From Leptospiraceae bacterium (GTDB lineage: Bacteria; Spirochaetota; Leptospiria; Leptospirales; Leptonemataceae): a stretch of 64,000 bases of DNA. The notes under the pieces are model-generated. The model was not told the DNA's origin. It was given only the letters and a program-made list of their open reading frames with translations, and did not search any database. Below are positions 15,447-22,088 of the stretch, one piece after another. The position numbers and the translations under genes were made by a program. The stretch is taken from the NCBI GenBank assembly GCA_026418015.1, contig JAOACE010000013.1:62001-126000 (forward strand), read 5' to 3'. Each line of letters starts with the position of its first letter. Position 1 is the stretch's first letter.

Positions 15447-16153
15447 TTTTCGATAACCAATAAATTTGCATCGAAGGTAACAATGCCAAGTAGAATAGAA
15501 TTTATTAACCTACCTACCCTTACTTTATAAGTAATGTTCTTTTTTCCGGGATGTAAAGGATAAGGATCTTTTACAATAATTTTTTTATTTTTAGAATCAT
15601 AACCCACAAGTACCACAAAATGCCCAGCTGGTTCTCCACATATATCATCATCTATTACGGTTGTTGGTGTTGGTGAACGTTCCCTCATAGAATTATACAA
15701 ATAAGTTGAACTTAATCCCGTTATGATAGGTACTCCTCTTTGAAAGATTTTTCTTAGTAATTTTGGTGTCAAATCTTCGTATTTGATTTTACCACCCCAT
15801 TTTATAAATTTTAAATATGCATCTGTTGCTTGTACTAATTTAGAATCTTCTTTTTTACATTTTCGTTGTAAAATCAATTTTTCTTTAAGATTGACGTTTT
15901 TTTTTAAAAACCATGTAGGATCAAAAATCTGTAAATTATACGTATAAATCGTAGCACTATAACCTCTTTCTAATGCATGATTGCCTAACATTACAGCAAG
16001 GGTTCCCCCCTCTTTTAAAAATTCGACTTCTTTTTTTAACTGATCTAACGATGGATAATCTGTTTCATAAAATCGATAAACTGCTTGTAGACAAGTAATT
16101 CCACAAGTTGTTTCGTCTGGTTGATTTTCTATATATATTTCTTGTAACTTCAT
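15443..16153 (-). CDS. C39-like cysteine peptidase
   Basis: 236 aa, a complete papain-fold domain of the C39-like type without transporter segments and without a signal peptide. Catalytic residues are visible: oxyanion Gln11, Cys17 in DETTCGITCLQAV, His178 in AGHFVVLVGYD and Asp196 in IVKDPYP. C39 peptidases of ABC exporters cut leader peptides after double-glycine; stand-alone C39-like proteins have varied peptide or isopeptide substrates. First gene of the amidoligase set, starting 22 nt after a beta-barrel gene. It may trim the product of the two ligases or release it from a carrier (inference). Confidence 0.8.
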   Translation of the reverse strand: MKLQEIYIENQPDETTCGITCLQAVYRFYETDYPSLDQLKKEVEFLKEGGTLAVMLGNHALERGYSATIYTYNLQIFDPTWFLKKNVNLKEKLILQRKCKKEDSKLVQATDAYLKFIKWGGKIKYEDLTPKLLRKIFQRGVPIITGLSSTYLYNSMRERSPTPTTVIDDDICGEPAGHFVVLVGYDSKNKKIIVKDPYPLHPGKKNITYKVRVGRLINSILLGIVTFDANLLVIEK

Positions 16154-16175
16154 AAAATGATTTTATTTTTAATGA

Positions 16176-16994
16176 TTAACGTGCAATCCCAATTCCTATA
16201 CGAAAAGAAATATTTTCTTTTTGAAATAAAAAGCTTTTTTTATTCTTTATAGATTCTAATTTACTATATAATAAAATAGGATTTTGTAAAAATTGCAAAG
16301 AAAGTTGATCCTGTTTAAGTGTTTTGTATACAAAAAAATCTTGAATTAGTAATTGATTTCTTGAATTTCTATATTGCTGGAATGATACTTCACAAAATCC
16401 TATTATACCAAATTCTAAAAAATTCCACCATTTTTGTGGAAAAATATTATATAATCCTATATCCATTGATATACCATAAAAGTTACCAAAATTCTTTTTA
16501 TAATAAATAGACTGTTCAAAATAATTCTGTAAATTATATAAATCTTTCGTTTGATTATAATACCTTTCAAAATAAACTTCCTGAAAACTTTCAGAAATTC
16601 TTAAAGATGTTCCTATATAAAAACCAAATTCAAAAGGAAAATACCGTAATTTGAATGAATTTATAGCTGGATTTTTTTTATTCGAAGTTATAGAAACATT
16701 TTTAAAACTTTCATTCCAGAAATCATAATTATTATATAAAAATTTACTGTTTTCTAAATTTGCTTTATATAAAGAAAATCCTATATGTAAAGGACTAATC
16801 AAACGATACATTATTTCTACACCTTCGCCTTGCTGTTGATTATTCGATACATAAGCAAAACCAGAAAGAAAAAAACGATATTTATCAAAATAAGGATTAT
16901 AATTATAACCCCTTTGTAATCTTGCTTCGATAGAAGAATTTAAAAAGAATACAATAAAAAACAAAAAGAATAAACACTTATAATTTAAATTCAT
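16176..16994 (-). CDS. putative outer-membrane beta-barrel protein
   Basis: 272 aa from the ATG at 16994, chosen because it starts a proper signal peptide (MNLNYKCLFFLFFIVFFLNS, cut near IEA); the frame extends further upstream without one. The mature protein is full of Tyr, Phe and Asn in alternating pattern and ends ISFRIGIGIAR, a strand with hydrophobic alternation. It overlaps the preceding barrel gene by 17 nt and ends 22 nt before the C39-like gene. No family recognised; the barrel assignment is from composition. Confidence 0.55.
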   Translation of the reverse strand: MNLNYKCLFFLFFIVFFLNSSIEARLQRGYNYNPYFDKYRFFLSGFAYVSNNQQQGEGVEIMYRLISPLHIGFSLYKANLENSKFLYNNYDFWNESFKNVSITSNKKNPAINSFKLRYFPFEFGFYIGTSLRISESFQEVYFERYYNQTKDLYNLQNYFEQSIYYKKNFGNFYGISMDIGLYNIFPQKWWNFLEFGIIGFCEVSFQQYRNSRNQLLIQDFFVYKTLKQDQLSLQFLQNPILLYSKLESIKNKKSFLFQKENISFRIGIGIAR

Positions 16995-17979
16995 AGTAAA
17001 TACTCCCTGAAAAAATTTCTTTATGAATTTGAAATTCTGGACCTCTACCTCCACTGGCAATAACATTTTGTATTTCTACCACAGAATATTTTCGAATTTC
17101 TGTTCCATGAGCAAATTTTGGCGTTAAGGTATAAAATTTTTCTTTACGAAATTCTATAATAATGGAACTTTTTTTATTAATATTGAAATTCATATTTAAA
17201 AACAATTCATAACCATTTCCTATATTGTCACCAACAAATTCTAAATACCTTAATGGATGATAAAAATCAAAATGTAAAATCCCTAAAAGAAATAATATAC
17301 CTGACTTTATTTTTAAATTTTTTAATTTTAATATTGGAAACGAAAAACCAGAACCGATAATATAATAATCATTATATAAAAAATGTACGTTTGTATTAAT
17401 AAATAATTTAATATAAGGATTAAAAGCATCAAATAAATAGTAATTTTCTCTTTCGTAATTAATCTTTAAAATAAAATCTAAATATTGATATAATTCTATT
17501 GTGTAGCGAAATTCAAGATTATAATATTTTTGCTTGATGGAAGATTCACTTTTATTAAAAACAATGTAATTATTCCATACATAAATACTATCTTTTCTAT
17601 AAAATAGATTATCAAAATTAAAAGGTTTATAACCCGTATAAGGAAATGTATAAAAATCAATATCATAAGAACCAATTTGCTTTCTAGATTCTCCATACTC
17701 TATTTTAAATCGACAGTTTGATAGTTGTTTATTATAATTTAAACCCACACTTAATACATTATTCCTTACAGGATAAAAAATTTCTGAACCTGCACCCGAA
17801 GGACAAAGAAAATTAGAACATTTATCCTGATTAAAAAGAAATAAATATGAATATTTAAATCCTGTTGTTACAATCTTATTTGAATTAATATTTTTAATTC
17901 CCCAAAAAACAGAAAATTCAGAAGAATCCATATTTTTAAAAACAAATAAAAGAATAAATATAAACAAAAATCGCTTCAT
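16978..17979 (-). CDS. putative outer-membrane beta-barrel protein
   Basis: 333 aa. N-terminal signal peptide MKRFLFIFILLFVFKNMDSS. The mature part has many Tyr/Phe-rich amphipathic strands (for example YYNLEFRYTIELYQYLDFIL) and ends with the strand SIYYEFKL, whose terminal aromatic/leucine pattern suits outer-membrane insertion. One possible disulfide pair lies near the N-terminus (CSNFLC). Its 3' end overlaps the next barrel gene by 17 nt, so the two are translated together. A terminator just upstream separates it from the lipoprotein gene. Function unknown. Confidence 0.55.
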   Translation of the reverse strand: MKRFLFIFILLFVFKNMDSSEFSVFWGIKNINSNKIVTTGFKYSYLFLFNQDKCSNFLCPSGAGSEIFYPVRNNVLSVGLNYNKQLSNCRFKIEYGESRKQIGSYDIDFYTFPYTGYKPFNFDNLFYRKDSIYVWNNYIVFNKSESSIKQKYYNLEFRYTIELYQYLDFILKINYERENYYLFDAFNPYIKLFINTNVHFLYNDYYIIGSGFSFPILKLKNLKIKSGILFLLGILHFDFYHPLRYLEFVGDNIGNGYELFLNMNFNINKKSSIIIEFRKEKFYTLTPKFAHGTEIRKYSVVEIQNVIASGGRGPEFQIHKEIFSGSIYYEFKL

Positions 17980-17997
17980 AAAACATCAATTATGGGT

Positions 17998-18024
17998 AAA
18001 ATAAAAAAGAGGCATTTCGCCTCT
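17998..18024 (-). terminator. intrinsic terminator after the short lipoprotein gene
   Basis: On the minus strand AGAGGC-GAAAT-GCCTCT (18024-18008) is a perfect 6-bp GC-rich hairpin followed by a T-rich run. It lies 5 nt after the stop of the 18029-18460 gene and upstream of the barrel gene at 17979, so it divides the two transcription units. Confidence 0.8.
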
Positions 18025-18028
18025 AATC

Positions 18029-18460
18029 TTAATAAAAATATTTTATTTCGTAAATATCTTTATATTCTAAGATAGCATTCGATAAAGAAGCGATAGTTTC
18101 ACAATTTTGCCTCCATTTTCCCTCTTCGTTTAAATCATAAAGAATATATTCATGAACATAATAAGGTGTTTTAATTATACACATTTTCTTAAAATTTTCT
18201 TTAGGGCAATGAGTTTTACTATATTCCCAGCCACTACAGGGATTATCAATTTCATTATCATTAGATATTCTATTAAATTCATTCCTACAATATTTTCCCA
18301 TATCACTACAACTATATTTAAAATAGAGACGATTTTGATTTTCACTAATTAAGAAATATAATAAAATATCCTGATCTTTTATTTTATTCTGACTTGTATC
18401 AAACCAGGTACAACTTAATAAGATAAATAAAAATAAAAAATTTGTTTTCAAGTAATTCAT
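18029..18460 (-). CDS. short lipoprotein of unknown function
   Basis: 143 aa from the ATG at 18460, chosen because it opens a lipoprotein signal peptide (MNYLKTNFLFLFILLSC, lipidated Cys17). The longer reading frame begins inside the upstream gene. The mature part has further cysteines (CSDMGKYC, NPCSGW, THC, KKMC, NCE) that could form disulfides. It starts 16 nt after the phase-variable gene and ends at a hairpin terminator, so the pair forms one transcript. No family recognised. Confidence 0.65.
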   Translation of the reverse strand: MNYLKTNFLFLFILLSCTWFDTSQNKIKDQDILLYFLISENQNRLYFKYSCSDMGKYCRNEFNRISNDNEIDNPCSGWEYSKTHCPKENFKKMCIIKTPYYVHEYILYDLNEEGKWRQNCETIASLSNAILEYKDIYEIKYFY

Positions 18461-18476
18461 AGTAATTCCTGATCTT

Positions 18477-19441
18477 TTAAAAATTAATTGGTGGTAAAGA
18501 AATAGAAGATGGATTACATAGATACATTTCCTCATAAGAATAAAGATAAACTCCATTACATAAGTTATATACATCTACTTTACGATAACATATAATATTA
18601 TGATTGGGAGGTGTACCATATACTTCTTGACGAATTTGATTTGTCCGACGATGATCTTCCCATACTAAACCAAAATAACATATCAACCATGGATGTTTTT
18701 GAAAAATATTCTGACCTCCCCCACATCCTCCTCGTGTTGTAAAGAATTTTGATTTCGGGCTTTCTGCTATACCTACTTCATTATTGTCTTGTTCTTCTGC
18801 CTTCGCTTTTAATTTTAATTCCATAGAAAAATCTTTCTCCTCTTCTGTCTCTTTATCCTTTACCTTACATCCTTCTATTCGGATTGTTAATTCATCTCCC
18901 TTCGGTGATATTCCACCTCCTGCATTACATTCTTCGCTTACTATATATTCTCTATCCCCTTCTCTTATCGTTATTGTATTCTGAGATGCCTCTTCTCCCT
19001 CTATACTCTTTCTATAAAACTTCGTTCCATTTCCTATATCTACATCATATATCTCTGCTTTGAATTCTATCGGCACTGTATTCAATTTTACCTTAAATTC
19101 CAGTCTATCCTGATTCTCTGATAATGTATTCGACTCCTCTGAACTATATTCTATTAAACTAATTTTCGCTTCTTCTTCCTTATTCGCATTAAAGGGTATC
19201 TCTTTTTCTCCTATCTTTATAACAGAATCTCTTTGTTCTGTTTCCTGAACAGGTTGATTTAATAACGATAAAACCCACATCGCAGTTTTATTTTCTTCTT
19301 TTGTTCCCAAACCACAATATAGAATAATCGATAATCCTATTATGGTTCCAAACGAAAAGCCAATCTTTTTATGAATTGAATTGAATTGAATTGAATTGAA
19401 TTGAATTGTTTTATTTTATTTTTTAGGTTTTGTATCTTCAT
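18477..19441 (-). CDS. repeat-interrupted (phase-variable, currently off) surface-protein gene
   Basis: A strong ribosome-binding site (AAGGAGG, around 19448-19454) is followed by ATG at 19441. The reading frame passes through seven GAATT/AATTC units and then meets TAA after about 34 codons. The long downstream frame (18477 to about 19370) is open and encodes, in order, a hydrophobic signal segment (KKIGFSFGTIIGLSIILYC), an acidic stretch, and a Cys/Gly-rich C-terminal part (GGCGGGQ). Removing one unit or adding two joins ATG and body into one frame of about 319 aa. The lipobox-like ILYC is weak. Without a switch, only an internal TTG at 19310 would give a 277-aa leaderless-signal protein. 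Function unknown. Confidence 0.7.
19373..19408. repeat. pentanucleotide tandem repeat, seven units
   Basis: Seven perfect copies of GAATT (19373-19407) plus one further G. On the coding (minus) strand these are AATTC units inside the first codons of the surface-protein gene. Because five is not a multiple of three, gain or loss of units moves the reading frame; six or nine units would restore it, while seven does not. Confidence 0.95.
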
Positions 19442-19544
19442 TGCTATCCTCCTTTATGTATTATTTTATTGTTTATTTATAATTTTTATATAATATAAAT
19501 TCTGACAATATTTTTTTCTTTGTTTATAAAAAAATTTTTTAAAA

Positions 19545-19590
19545 TTGTCCCTTTTTGGACAAAAAAGGTATCGTTTTGTCCTTTTTGGGA
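19545..19590. promoter_or_regulatory. inverted repeat plus imperfect second copy in a divergent promoter region
   Basis: TTGTCC-CTTTTT-GGACAA (19545-19562) is a perfect 6-bp inverted repeat. A second near copy begins at 19576 (TTGTCC-TTTTT-GGGA). Both lie between the divergent surface-protein gene (start 19441) and the Bdr-like gene (start 19732). This arrangement suits an operator for a dimeric regulator, though the first copy could also form a hairpin in the minus-strand leader. Confidence 0.4.
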
Positions 19591-19731
19591 TAATATTTAT
19601 AATAATACATTTATTATATTTGTAAAATATTGGATTTTCTTTTTTAATCTGTCTGATGGATTAATAATTTAAAAAATATTCTTATAACAAATTTTTCTTT
19701 CTTAATAAAATTGTTTTATTATTATGTTACT

Positions 19732-20256
19732 ATGCCTTTAAAAGCAGATATTAGAAGAGCTAAAATTAAAAAATTTATTACTTTTCTTAAAGAAAATAAA
19801 GAAGATATAGCCATACAAGAATTAGATGAAATCTTTGAAGAAATTACCGAAGAACAACAAAATTATGTCCAAAAATCAGAATTACGAGAATTAATTATCG
19901 AAGTTCGAGAAGGTTTTAAAACAATGGATAAACGTTTTCAGGATCTTATCCACTATACGGACAAAAGATTCGAAGAACAATTGCATTATATGGATAAACG
20001 TTTTGAAGAACAATTACAATATATGAATAAACGCTTTGAAGAGCAATTACAATATATGAATAAACGCTTCGAAGCCATAGATAAAAGATTCGAAGATACG
20101 AATAAAAGAATTCATTTCATCCAATGGTTAATAGTAGTGTTAGTTAGTATTTTATTTAGTACAATGACGTATTTTAATAATAAAAATTTTGATATTTTAC
20201 AAAAGATTTTAGAAACAAATCAACAAATTCAACAAGAGCTAAAAAATAGAAAATAA
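19732..20256 (+). CDS. Bdr-like repetitive coiled-coil membrane protein
   Basis: 174 aa from the ATG at 19732 (MPLKADIRRA); the frame is open a little further upstream from a TTG. A charged helical N-terminus leads into four 11-residue repeats at about 66-109 of the form DKRFEEQLQYM, then a degenerate stretch (NKRFEAIDKRFED). A membrane segment (about 129-148, FIQWLIVVLVSILFSTM) and a 26-residue polar tail follow. This is the architecture of Borrelia Bdr proteins and of DUF1640-like coiled-coil proteins: an inner-membrane protein with the coiled coil in the cytoplasm. Function in the family is poorly known. Divergent from the phase-variable gene. Confidence 0.7.
   Translation: MPLKADIRRAKIKKFITFLKENKEDIAIQELDEIFEEITEEQQNYVQKSELRELIIEVREGFKTMDKRFQDLIHYTDKRFEEQLHYMDKRFEEQLQYMNKRFEEQLQYMNKRFEAIDKRFEDTNKRIHFIQWLIVVLVSILFSTMTYFNNKNFDILQKILETNQQIQQELKNRK
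19927..20058 (+). repeat. 33-bp in-frame tandem repeat, four units
   Basis: Four 33-bp units at 19927, 19960, 19993 and 20026 encode 11-residue repeats. The last three are near-identical at the DNA level, and the last two differ at only a few bases. Because each unit is a multiple of three, copy-number change would lengthen or shorten the coiled coil without a frameshift. Confidence 0.85.
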
Positions 20257-20345
20257 AATTTTGGTTTTTCCTCTATATTTGTATATTTATCAATAATTGT
20301 TATTATTTTCTTGCCTATTAAAAAAACTATATTTTATTGTTTTGT

Positions 20346-20720
20346 ATGAAGGAAAATTCAGATTCTATACACAATAATCAACAAAGCGAAGAACAAAATG
20401 ATCTTTCCAATCAAAATCCAGAGTTAATTTCTAAATTATGGGAAGAAGTAAAAAAAGTTTATGATCCAGAAATTGGTTTCTCTATCGTAGATTTAGGGCT
20501 TGTTTATGATATATGGACAGAAGGAAATAAAGCATTTGTAAAAATGACTTTAACTTCAATGGGTTGTCCAGCTGGTCCTTATTTAGAACACGAAGTAAAA
20601 GAAGCATGTAAGCGTGTAAATGGTATAGAAGAAGCAATTGTAGAAATTACATTTTCTCCTCCATGGGATCCAAGAGAAATGGCAAGCGAAGAAGTAAAAA
20701 TGATGTTAGGTATTTATTGA
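20346..20720 (+). CDS. DUF59/MIP18-family iron-sulfur assembly protein (SufT/PaaD-like)
   Basis: 124 aa from the ATG at 20346. The whole body (about 30-124) is a DUF59 domain: LWEEVKKVYDPEIGFSIVDLGLVYD, then MTLTSMGCPAGPYLEHEV with the conserved cysteine, and ending ITFSPPWDPREMASEEVKMMLG. Family members help load or mature iron-sulfur clusters, as SufT does, or form part of the phenylacetyl-CoA oxygenase (PaaD). No paa or suf genes lie nearby, so a general Fe-S role is more likely. Only 8 nt separate it from the cytochrome-like lipoprotein gene. Confidence 0.85.
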   Translation: MKENSDSIHNNQQSEEQNDLSNQNPELISKLWEEVKKVYDPEIGFSIVDLGLVYDIWTEGNKAFVKMTLTSMGCPAGPYLEHEVKEACKRVNGIEEAIVEITFSPPWDPREMASEEVKMMLGIY

Positions 20721-20728
20721 TTTTATAA

Positions 20729-21127
20729 ATGAAAAATAAATTAATTTTTATTATTGTTATTTTTATATTTTTATTTTGTAAATTACAAAACGAAGAAGAT
20801 AAGAAGAAAAACGAACTAATTCAAACCCTTTTACTAAATAGTATTAATTCTAATTGTAAAGTATATTCTCTATCAGAAGAGCCAACATTTACAGAATTAC
20901 ATCAAAAAAATGTATTCGAAAACTGTCTAAAATGTCATAATTATACTATGCATGAAGGTAATTTAAATTTAAATGATTATAATCAAACGAAAATTAGAGT
21001 TGTTCCTTATGCACCGCAGGAATCCTTATTATACCAGACTATTACTATTGGTAGTATGAAGGATTATTCCAATTCCTGTACAAATGATGCAGTTCGCAAA
21101 TGGATTCAATATGGTGCTAAAGAATAA
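20729..21127 (+). CDS. c-type cytochrome-like lipoprotein
   Basis: 132 aa. Lipoprotein signal peptide with lipidated Cys17 (IFIFLFC). One covalent heme site, CLKCH (C66, C69, H70). The following pattern (LNLNDYNQTKIRVVPYAPQESLLYQTIT and later AVRKWIQYGA) matches small monoheme cytochrome domains with a distant Met ligand, here probably in GSMKDY. Two more cysteines (C43 and that in NSCTND) could pair. It would be anchored on the periplasmic face and carry electrons. Likely co-transcribed with the DUF59 gene, and it ends 1 nt before the convergent folE2 stop. Confidence 0.75.
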   Translation: MKNKLIFIIVIFIFLFCKLQNEEDKKKNELIQTLLLNSINSNCKVYSLSEEPTFTELHQKNVFENCLKCHNYTMHEGNLNLNDYNQTKIRVVPYAPQESLLYQTITIGSMKDYSNSCTNDAVRKWIQYGAKE

Positions 21128-21128
21128 T

Positions 21129-22088
21129 TTATTTTAAACCTCCCTTGATTCCTTTGTAAATTTTGGCAAAAGCATTATGACTATGTAAAGATTCAAAATG
21201 TTCAATTTCAGCTTTCCAGTCTAAAATTTTACTTTCATTATCTAATACTTGATGCAATCGTCTTGCTACATGTTCTACAAAAATAGGATTCATACCATTC
21301 AAAATAGCAAATGCCTGTTCATCAATACGTTTAACCATACTTTGTGTTTCTGTTGGAATAGCTTTACGTAATAATTCTACAAGATAAGGAATAAAAAATT
21401 CTTCTTCTGGTGCTATTTGTACAGTTACTCTTGCTCTGGAACGTTGTGCATGGGCCGTTGCAATTCCATTACCTTCTTGTGTTAATCCTTGAGCATATTC
21501 GTATTCATATTGTTGAGCTAACGATAAACTACAAGGACAAGTAGACGAATATTCATAATCCACTGTATAAAATAATTGAAAATGGTTTTCTTTTAAGAAC
21601 GCTTCGATTTTAGAAGAATAATACTGCCAACCCCAATTATCGCTTTTAAGGGATTTTTGCTTCATAGGGTAAGAAAATTCTAATACTAAATGAGCATATT
21701 CGAATAAATCTTCTGATTCTTCATCGCGCATTTCTATTTGATATCGCTTTAATATCTTTTCGATTAAAGCATGACTAATGGGATGAAAAGATGTTTCTTC
21801 TTGTAAGATTGCACATAATCTACTCATGTTTATGCCCGTCTTCCCTTCTTTTAAGTTTACCCTCATAGAGGCAATACAATCGTGGTTCATAACCGGCTTT
21901 TCGGGTAATTCCAAATGTTCAAACATGATAGGAATTCTGTATCGCGTAATCCCCACTTCTTGAATTCTAATCCCTGTCTTATCGGGGAGTTTTTGGTAGT
22001 CAGATAGTCCTTTTTCGTCTTTTATAGGAAAATGATTTTTATTATTATAAATTTTAGACAATATTTCTTGATTTTCTAAACGTGCCAT
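21129..22088 (-). CDS. folE2: GTP cyclohydrolase I, type IB (FolE2)
   Basis: 319 aa. Converts GTP to 7,8-dihydroneopterin triphosphate, the first step to folate and to queuosine precursors. Family blocks seen: the N-terminal VGITRYRIPIMF, the metal/active-site cysteine in SSTCPCSLSLAQQYEY, the histidine-bearing NGIATAHAQRSRARVTV and the C-terminal HVARRLHQVLDN and ESLHSHNAFAKI. FolE2 does not depend strictly on zinc, so it is often used under zinc limitation; no Zur site is evident. It lies 76 nt after mnmC on the same strand. Confidence 0.92.
   Translation of the reverse strand: MARLENQEILSKIYNNKNHFPIKDEKGLSDYQKLPDKTGIRIQEVGITRYRIPIMFEHLELPEKPVMNHDCIASMRVNLKEGKTGINMSRLCAILQEETSFHPISHALIEKILKRYQIEMRDEESEDLFEYAHLVLEFSYPMKQKSLKSDNWGWQYYSSKIEAFLKENHFQLFYTVDYEYSSTCPCSLSLAQQYEYEYAQGLTQEGNGIATAHAQRSRARVTVQIAPEEEFFIPYLVELLRKAIPTETQSMVKRIDEQAFAILNGMNPIFVEHVARRLHQVLDNESKILDWKAEIEHFESLHSHNAFAKIYKGIKGGLK

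Follow-up and report, generated by a model that had tools for sequence, protein, structure and literature searches.

A probable translational on/off switch at the head of an exchanged lipoprotein operon in a Leptospiraceae genome

Frame-switching repeat tracts are known mostly in host-restricted pathogens. Among spirochaetes, poly-G phase variation occurs in the outer-membrane protein genes of the Treponema pallidum tpr family, and in the Vsp and Vpma systems of mycoplasmas a conserved 5′ region with its signal peptide is joined to different lipoprotein bodies. The opa genes of gonococci carry a pentanucleotide repeat in the signal-sequence region and are in frame less often than the expected one third; interspecies mosaicism has also been considered for them (PMC13183285). 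A pentanucleotide tract of only four units in Haemophilus influenzae showed a high measured switching rate (PMC2651432). The original prediction for the present locus had appealed to pentanucleotide tracts at the 5′ ends of surface-protein genes in Neisseria and Haemophilus as a known contingency mechanism. It was aware of no description of this tract type in Leptospira-lineage genomes; open-access full-text searches, in which absence is no proof, likewise returned no phase-variable repeat tract in Leptospira, and for neither Leptospira nor Brachyspira a relevant paper on phase variation. As a mechanism, such switching is already known, and it is the lineage, the gene family and the leader-plus-cassette layout that appear to be undescribed.

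The DNA analysed (the window) is a stretch of 64,000 nucleotides from a 2.91-Mb assembly (28 contigs) of a Leptospiraceae member that is probably free-living. On its minus strand AAAGGAGGATAGCAATG, read directly from 19460, fixes the start codon ATG at 19441-19439; the ribosome-binding site AAGGAGG lies at about 19453-19447 (whole element 19439..19453). Twelve codons (MKIQNLKNKIKQ) separate this ATG from a pentanucleotide tract (19372..19408, minus strand), for which TRF gave a perfect period of 5 over 37 bp; its seven GAATT units occupy 19373-19407 of the plus strand and read AATTC in the gene. The unit of 5 bp is not a multiple of three, and all seven copies lie inside the 5′ coding region, 11-12 codons after the ATG. 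With seven units, the frame from the ATG (frame 0, MKIQNLKNKIKQFNSIQFNSIQFIKRLAFRLEP) continues as FNSIQFNSIQFIKRLAFRLEP and ends at a TAA (19342-19340) after 33 codons (19340..19441, minus strand), where about 34 had been predicted. Another phase of the same DNA (IHKKIGFSFGTIIGLSIILYCGLGTKEENK) is open up to the stop at 18477-18479. By translation arithmetic, six or nine GAATT units, not seven, bring this downstream frame into phase with the ATG; the unit count sets either a short peptide or the full-length product, no alternative standard start being available. The downstream frame has an upstream in-frame stop at 19416-19418, and from there no ATG, GTG or TTG occurs before the TTG at 19310, which sits past the lipobox cysteine, so normal start codons yield no exported product at seven units.

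The downstream frame is a genuine coding frame. Its 297 open codons have a probability of about 7e-9 at the local background stop frequency, and its codon bias is normal (+0.23 bits per codon; the two remaining frames of the same strand score about -0.75). A chance origin of the tract is excluded, because 60 first-order Markov sequences of 64 kb each held a maximum of three to four copies of any 4-7-base unit. In the whole assembly, a pattern search found GAATT repeated four times at a single place, which is the tract of the window. In the 464 kb sampled from this genome as repeat background, the tract was also the one perfect simple repeat to exceed the threshold. The direct readings thus agree with what the original prediction had seen: a strong ribosome-binding site and ATG, seven units, an early stop, and a long frame with a hydrophobic signal segment that six or nine units would join. 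Its conclusion, a phase-variable gene in the OFF state, is supported by the intact frame, the codon usage, the signal peptide, the strong Shine-Dalgarno (SD) sequence and the OFF arithmetic.

In the downstream frame, a putative signal peptide with lipobox (KKIGFSFGTIIGLSIILYC-G; 19305..19372, minus strand) forms the end of the leader described below; direct reading gave a basic n-region, a hydrophobic core and a lipobox cysteine preceded by Y at position -1. Y at this position is permitted under the looser spirochaetal lipobox rules only. The body that follows in the ON frame (18477..19307, minus strand; stop 18479-18477) is open with coding-type codon usage; it had no significant relative in Pfam, NCBIfam or the PDB, and relatives were absent from the named genomes and viral contigs searched. 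The product is predicted to be a lipoprotein and its gene the first of a two-lipoprotein operon: a second predicted lipoprotein (MNYLKTNFLFLFILLSC; 18029..18460, minus strand) starts 16 nt past the stop of the first, and a hairpin with a T run resembling an intrinsic terminator (AGAGGCGAAATGCCTCT-TTTTTATTTT; 18008..18024, minus strand) closes the pair.

Sixty relatives of the window genome (G000) were searched for the body, and convincing relatives were found in one, G003, a member of the same genus (Leptospiraceae MAG KatS3mg129, contig BPKM01000006.1, G003:C6). It carries two copies of the window leader, with ATG at L011:8914 and 15824. The shared leader of ~280 bp comprises an operator-like dyad, a promoter region, the ribosome site, the ATG, the tract and the signal peptide; over this length the two G003 copies show 7 and 4 substitutions relative to the window, and one indel each. 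The sole indel is exactly 10 bp, or two repeat units, and lies inside the tract, which has seven units in the window and five unit lengths in both G003 leaders (in one copy, the last unit carries a C-to-T change). Behind the tract, the leader is nucleotide-identical in the window and G003 copy 2, and copy 1 has one change at the tract end. The count is thus not fixed at seven among relatives, the comparison being one across two species and not inside one population; slippage may well be the source of the difference. Both G003 copies stop after 20 codons and are OFF in the other wrong phase, which makes all three leader copies OFF; at two thirds OFF each, this has a chance of 30%, the copies being related and not independent.

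That the tract was misassembled or misread, and that its true count joins the frames in most cells, might be suspected in a 28-contig assembly, since short tandem repeats can collapse. Such an error is highly improbable, as 37 bp is well within any read length, the unit is of five bases and not a homopolymer, and both G003 copies likewise stand at non-joining counts. Judged by its name, KatS3mg129 probably comes from Katase hot-spring sediment, and for this likely source spring a PacBio HiFi survey has been published, the text of which does not mention KatS3mg129, so that the two are linked by name only (PMC9671151). A population of mixed counts would favour phase variation, not refute it.

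The short frame might instead encode a regulatory leader peptide (attenuation or coupling), in which case the body would be translated from a non-standard start or through reinitiation or frameshifting. Such a role would suit the short ORF with its strong SD ahead of a signal peptide lacking a standard start, as it would an in-frame ATT inside the tract, but this ATT has no SD ahead of it. The OFF peptides, moreover, are 33, 20 and 20 aa long and end in FIKRLAFRLEP, FNS and FNL; with lengths and C-termini that vary among the copies, the short peptide itself is not conserved. The third phase from the ATG, by comparison, runs straight into the signal peptide and gives a lysine-rich N-region of lipoprotein type. 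A leader peptide is therefore regarded as very unlikely.

Upstream of the promoter region, all three leaders have kept a perfect operator-like dyad (GGACAAAA-N9-TTTTGTCC; 19557..19581, minus strand) and a further half-site beside it (GGGACAA, 19545-19551). Elsewhere in the window genome, the dyad is best matched upstream of two genes, one for a lipase-like exported protein and one for a lipoprotein with an LruC domain (DUF4842), which makes it probable that the tract gene shares its regulator with other exported proteins; the sites may form a small regulon of such proteins. These other two dyads (L099:1503-1527 and L098:1503-1527) are likewise accompanied by an extra half-site (GGACAA/GAACAA). 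A weak sigma-70-like promoter candidate (TTGTCA-18-AATTAT; 19479..19508, minus strand), placed by consensus scan, scores no better than shuffled sequence.

Identity between the window and G003 leaders breaks off directly behind the lipobox (GGTTTGGGA). Past this point, the window has a body of ~275 aa and G003 an unrelated one, which is open for 213 codons in copy 2, whereas an IS630-type insertion disrupts it in copy 1. Downstream of the unrelated body, G003 has a possible barrel gene and, after that, a headless fragment, which starts with the middle module of the window body (FSMELKLKAKAEEQ...TTRG; 95-98% identical DNA) and has a different cysteine-containing tail. Within the window body this conserved module (..FSMELKLKAKAEEQDNNEVGIAESPKSKFFTTRGGCGGG; 18715..18836, minus strand) matches G003 DNA at two places with 95-98% identity; a variable Cys-containing tail comes after it, and the two G003 places have different tails. 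The mature part of the second lipoprotein is ~99-100% identical to a G003 lipoprotein and its signal peptide differs, so that exchange near the lipobox took place there too. G003 thus contains duplicated leaders and headless body fragments, and the window genome one copy each of body and leader; a silent body archive was absent from the window genome, and no recombinase was seen beside the locus.

Two further candidates were set aside. A putative second leader of the window genome at C16:488657 shares just the SD and A+T-rich DNA and precedes a WD40-type gene, and a supposed homologue in genome G014 is a chance frame in GC-rich DNA. The WD40-repeat gene at 488.7 kb of G000:C16 (L038:1515-2470), which has a strong SD, seems to be cut by an early stop or frameshift near L038:1670.

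A sliding identity comparison with G003 delimited an island at 16100..21600 of the window (boundaries ±200 bp). Over these ~5.5 kb the DNA is mostly 95-100% identical, and the flanks on both sides are 66-84% identical; with identity so far above that of its flanks, the locus has been exchanged between species. Identity inside the island is uneven (about 1.2 kb at 100%, the remainder at about 93-99%), a pattern that an assembly chimera would not be expected to show and that suggests repeated exchange. The breakpoints lie near the folE2 and C39-peptidase genes, which are conserved and could act as homology arms. The island, which encodes predicted surface proteins, is a recent interspecies replacement. 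Only two species carry the locus; beside folE2 it is absent from both remaining genomes of the genus. Beyond what had been predicted from the window alone, the locus is also a site of cassette exchange.

Within the island, a predicted exported protein of 333 aa (16978..17979, minus strand) is 100% identical in G003 and possibly a beta-barrel; a second predicted exported protein (16176..16994, minus strand) was recognised by its signal sequence and spacing. AlphaFold models of the 333-aa protein and the lipoprotein had mean pLDDT values of 37 and 35, too poor for a structure search. On the plus strand, a divergent gene (19711..20256) encodes a coiled-coil protein with 33-bp tandem repeats (TRF) and a C-terminal membrane segment. 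The original prediction had called this neighbour Bdr-like: the 33-bp repeats are present, and the Bdr assignment was not sustained, since no Bdr family model matched and the family libraries gave sub-threshold coiled-coil matches only, so that repeats and membrane segment amount to a resemblance. In G003 the divergent gene has exactly one extra 33-bp (11-residue) unit (window 19954-20074; L011:8247-8382) and 5 other substitutions in 546 bp (~99% identical DNA).

Around the two leaders of G003 (L011:9679-18448) stands a run of divergent exported proteins of ~250 aa, possibly beta-barrels, together with small lipoproteins, a candidate hypervariable surface island. Two of the possible barrel genes carry frameshifts in G003 (L012:1-708; L011:16563-17271), whereas the window or the other copy has an undamaged version; either decay or assembly indels may be responsible.

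The body swap at the lipobox, the duplicated G003 leaders and the interspecies exchange could also be taken to mean that the locus serves mainly for recombination-driven antigen exchange and that the tract is incidental. This is decidedly unlikely: it leaves unexplained a perfect tract that lies exactly between ATG and signal peptide and varies by whole units, and the window genome has neither silent cassettes nor a second leader. Antigen exchange and tract switching are, in any case, compatible rather than exclusive.

The reading preferred here, to which we assign a probability of roughly 0.78, is a two-lipoprotein operon whose translation is switched on and off by a slipped-strand mechanism, with a constant leader to which interchangeable bodies are attached and the whole on an exchanged island. 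Slipped-strand mispairing in the AATTC tract at the start of the gene would alter the number of units. One count in three would place the ATG in frame with signal peptide and lipoprotein body (ON); the other two would end translation a few dozen codons in (OFF), the state of the window assembly. With translation cut at the start of the first gene, polarity would probably affect the second lipoprotein too, which lies 16 nt downstream in the terminator-closed operon. To the constant leader, which runs from the dyad to the signal peptide, recombination at the lipobox has joined different bodies, and the island passes between species by homologous exchange through the conserved genes at its flanks. 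The products would be expected at the outer surface, with the cells of one population switching between states, and phage, grazers or neighbours could be the selective agent.

Against phase variation counts the finding that every known copy (three of three) is OFF, with no ON allele among them, as does the presence of the locus in two species only, and the 5-versus-7 difference could stem from long divergence instead of frequent switching. The same out-of-frame copies could mean that the tract grew by chance in a decaying gene, with the lipoprotein permanently off and the locus a degrading leftover. Some decay is indeed under way, as indicated by the IS630-type insertion in G003 copy 1 and by one frameshifted neighbouring gene copy, the barrel-like gene behind copy 2. 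As an account of the whole locus, decay is nevertheless unlikely: 297 stop-free codons with normal codon usage stand in a genome of 30% GC, the copy-2 body of G003 is likewise intact (213 codons), SD, start and signal peptide are retained unchanged, and the lone leader indel is two whole repeat units and not random damage.

Under phase variation, a single tract in a genome otherwise almost without simple repeats, and in an organism that is probably free-living, points to on/off surface variation that, in this lineage, does not depend on infecting animals. The common leader, with different counts and swapped bodies in two species, makes the question of switching measurable from public metagenome reads. 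A wider proposal, to which we give somewhat less than even odds, is surface variation at two levels in a non-pathogenic spirochaete, in which an operator-controlled slipping leader, swappable lipobox-fused bodies and interspecies island exchange act together; the variation might be directed at phages or grazers and not at immunity. If this were true, variation both in on/off state and in identity would arise from one site.

Among 393 genomes searched, the tract unit was found in three other spirochaetes only (G078, G351 and G211). G078 (Spirochaetota; L064, L069, L080) has CAATT tracts of 5, 8 and 9 units at several loci; they share the repeat unit and the range of 5-9 units with the window. 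Unlike the window tract, they are intergenic or in 5′ UTRs, outside coding frames, and precede unrelated genes (FkbM-type methyltransferase and glycosyltransferase-like, names read from translations and not from a family search). Any effect would therefore be transcriptional or on the mRNA, and the tracts are likely to be a set of phase-variable loci that act outside the coding frame. In G351 (L067), from another spirochaete family, sixteen CAATT units stand before a small lipoprotein-like gene.

With the tpr genes of T. pallidum, the locus shares a spirochaetal host, surface-protein genes and switching by repeat length, there of a homopolymer; the tpr tracts differ in lying in or near promoters with a transcriptional effect, in a host-restricted pathogen and with other proteins. 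The mycoplasma Vsp and Vpma systems likewise have a constant leader with signal peptide and variable lipoprotein bodies, but in the window genome no silent body archive was found and no recombinase beside the locus. Short pentamer tracts of H. influenzae (for example GACGA in hsdM) also toggle the frame with few units inside an ORF; they belong, however, to restriction-modification and LPS genes, not to a lipoprotein, and have no leader/body mosaic. A close likeness is to Opa of N. gonorrhoeae and N. meningitidis, where a 5′ pentanucleotide in the signal-sequence region of a surface-protein gene sets the frame by its count and is often out of frame. Opa differs in its repeat (CTCTT versus AATTC), in its product (a barrel versus a predicted lipoprotein) and in number (about 11 opa genes versus one locus), and no significant Pfam, NCBIfam or PDB match connects the window lipoprotein with Opa. 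Judged by its sequence, the window locus appears Opa-like in logic and unrelated to Opa in sequence.
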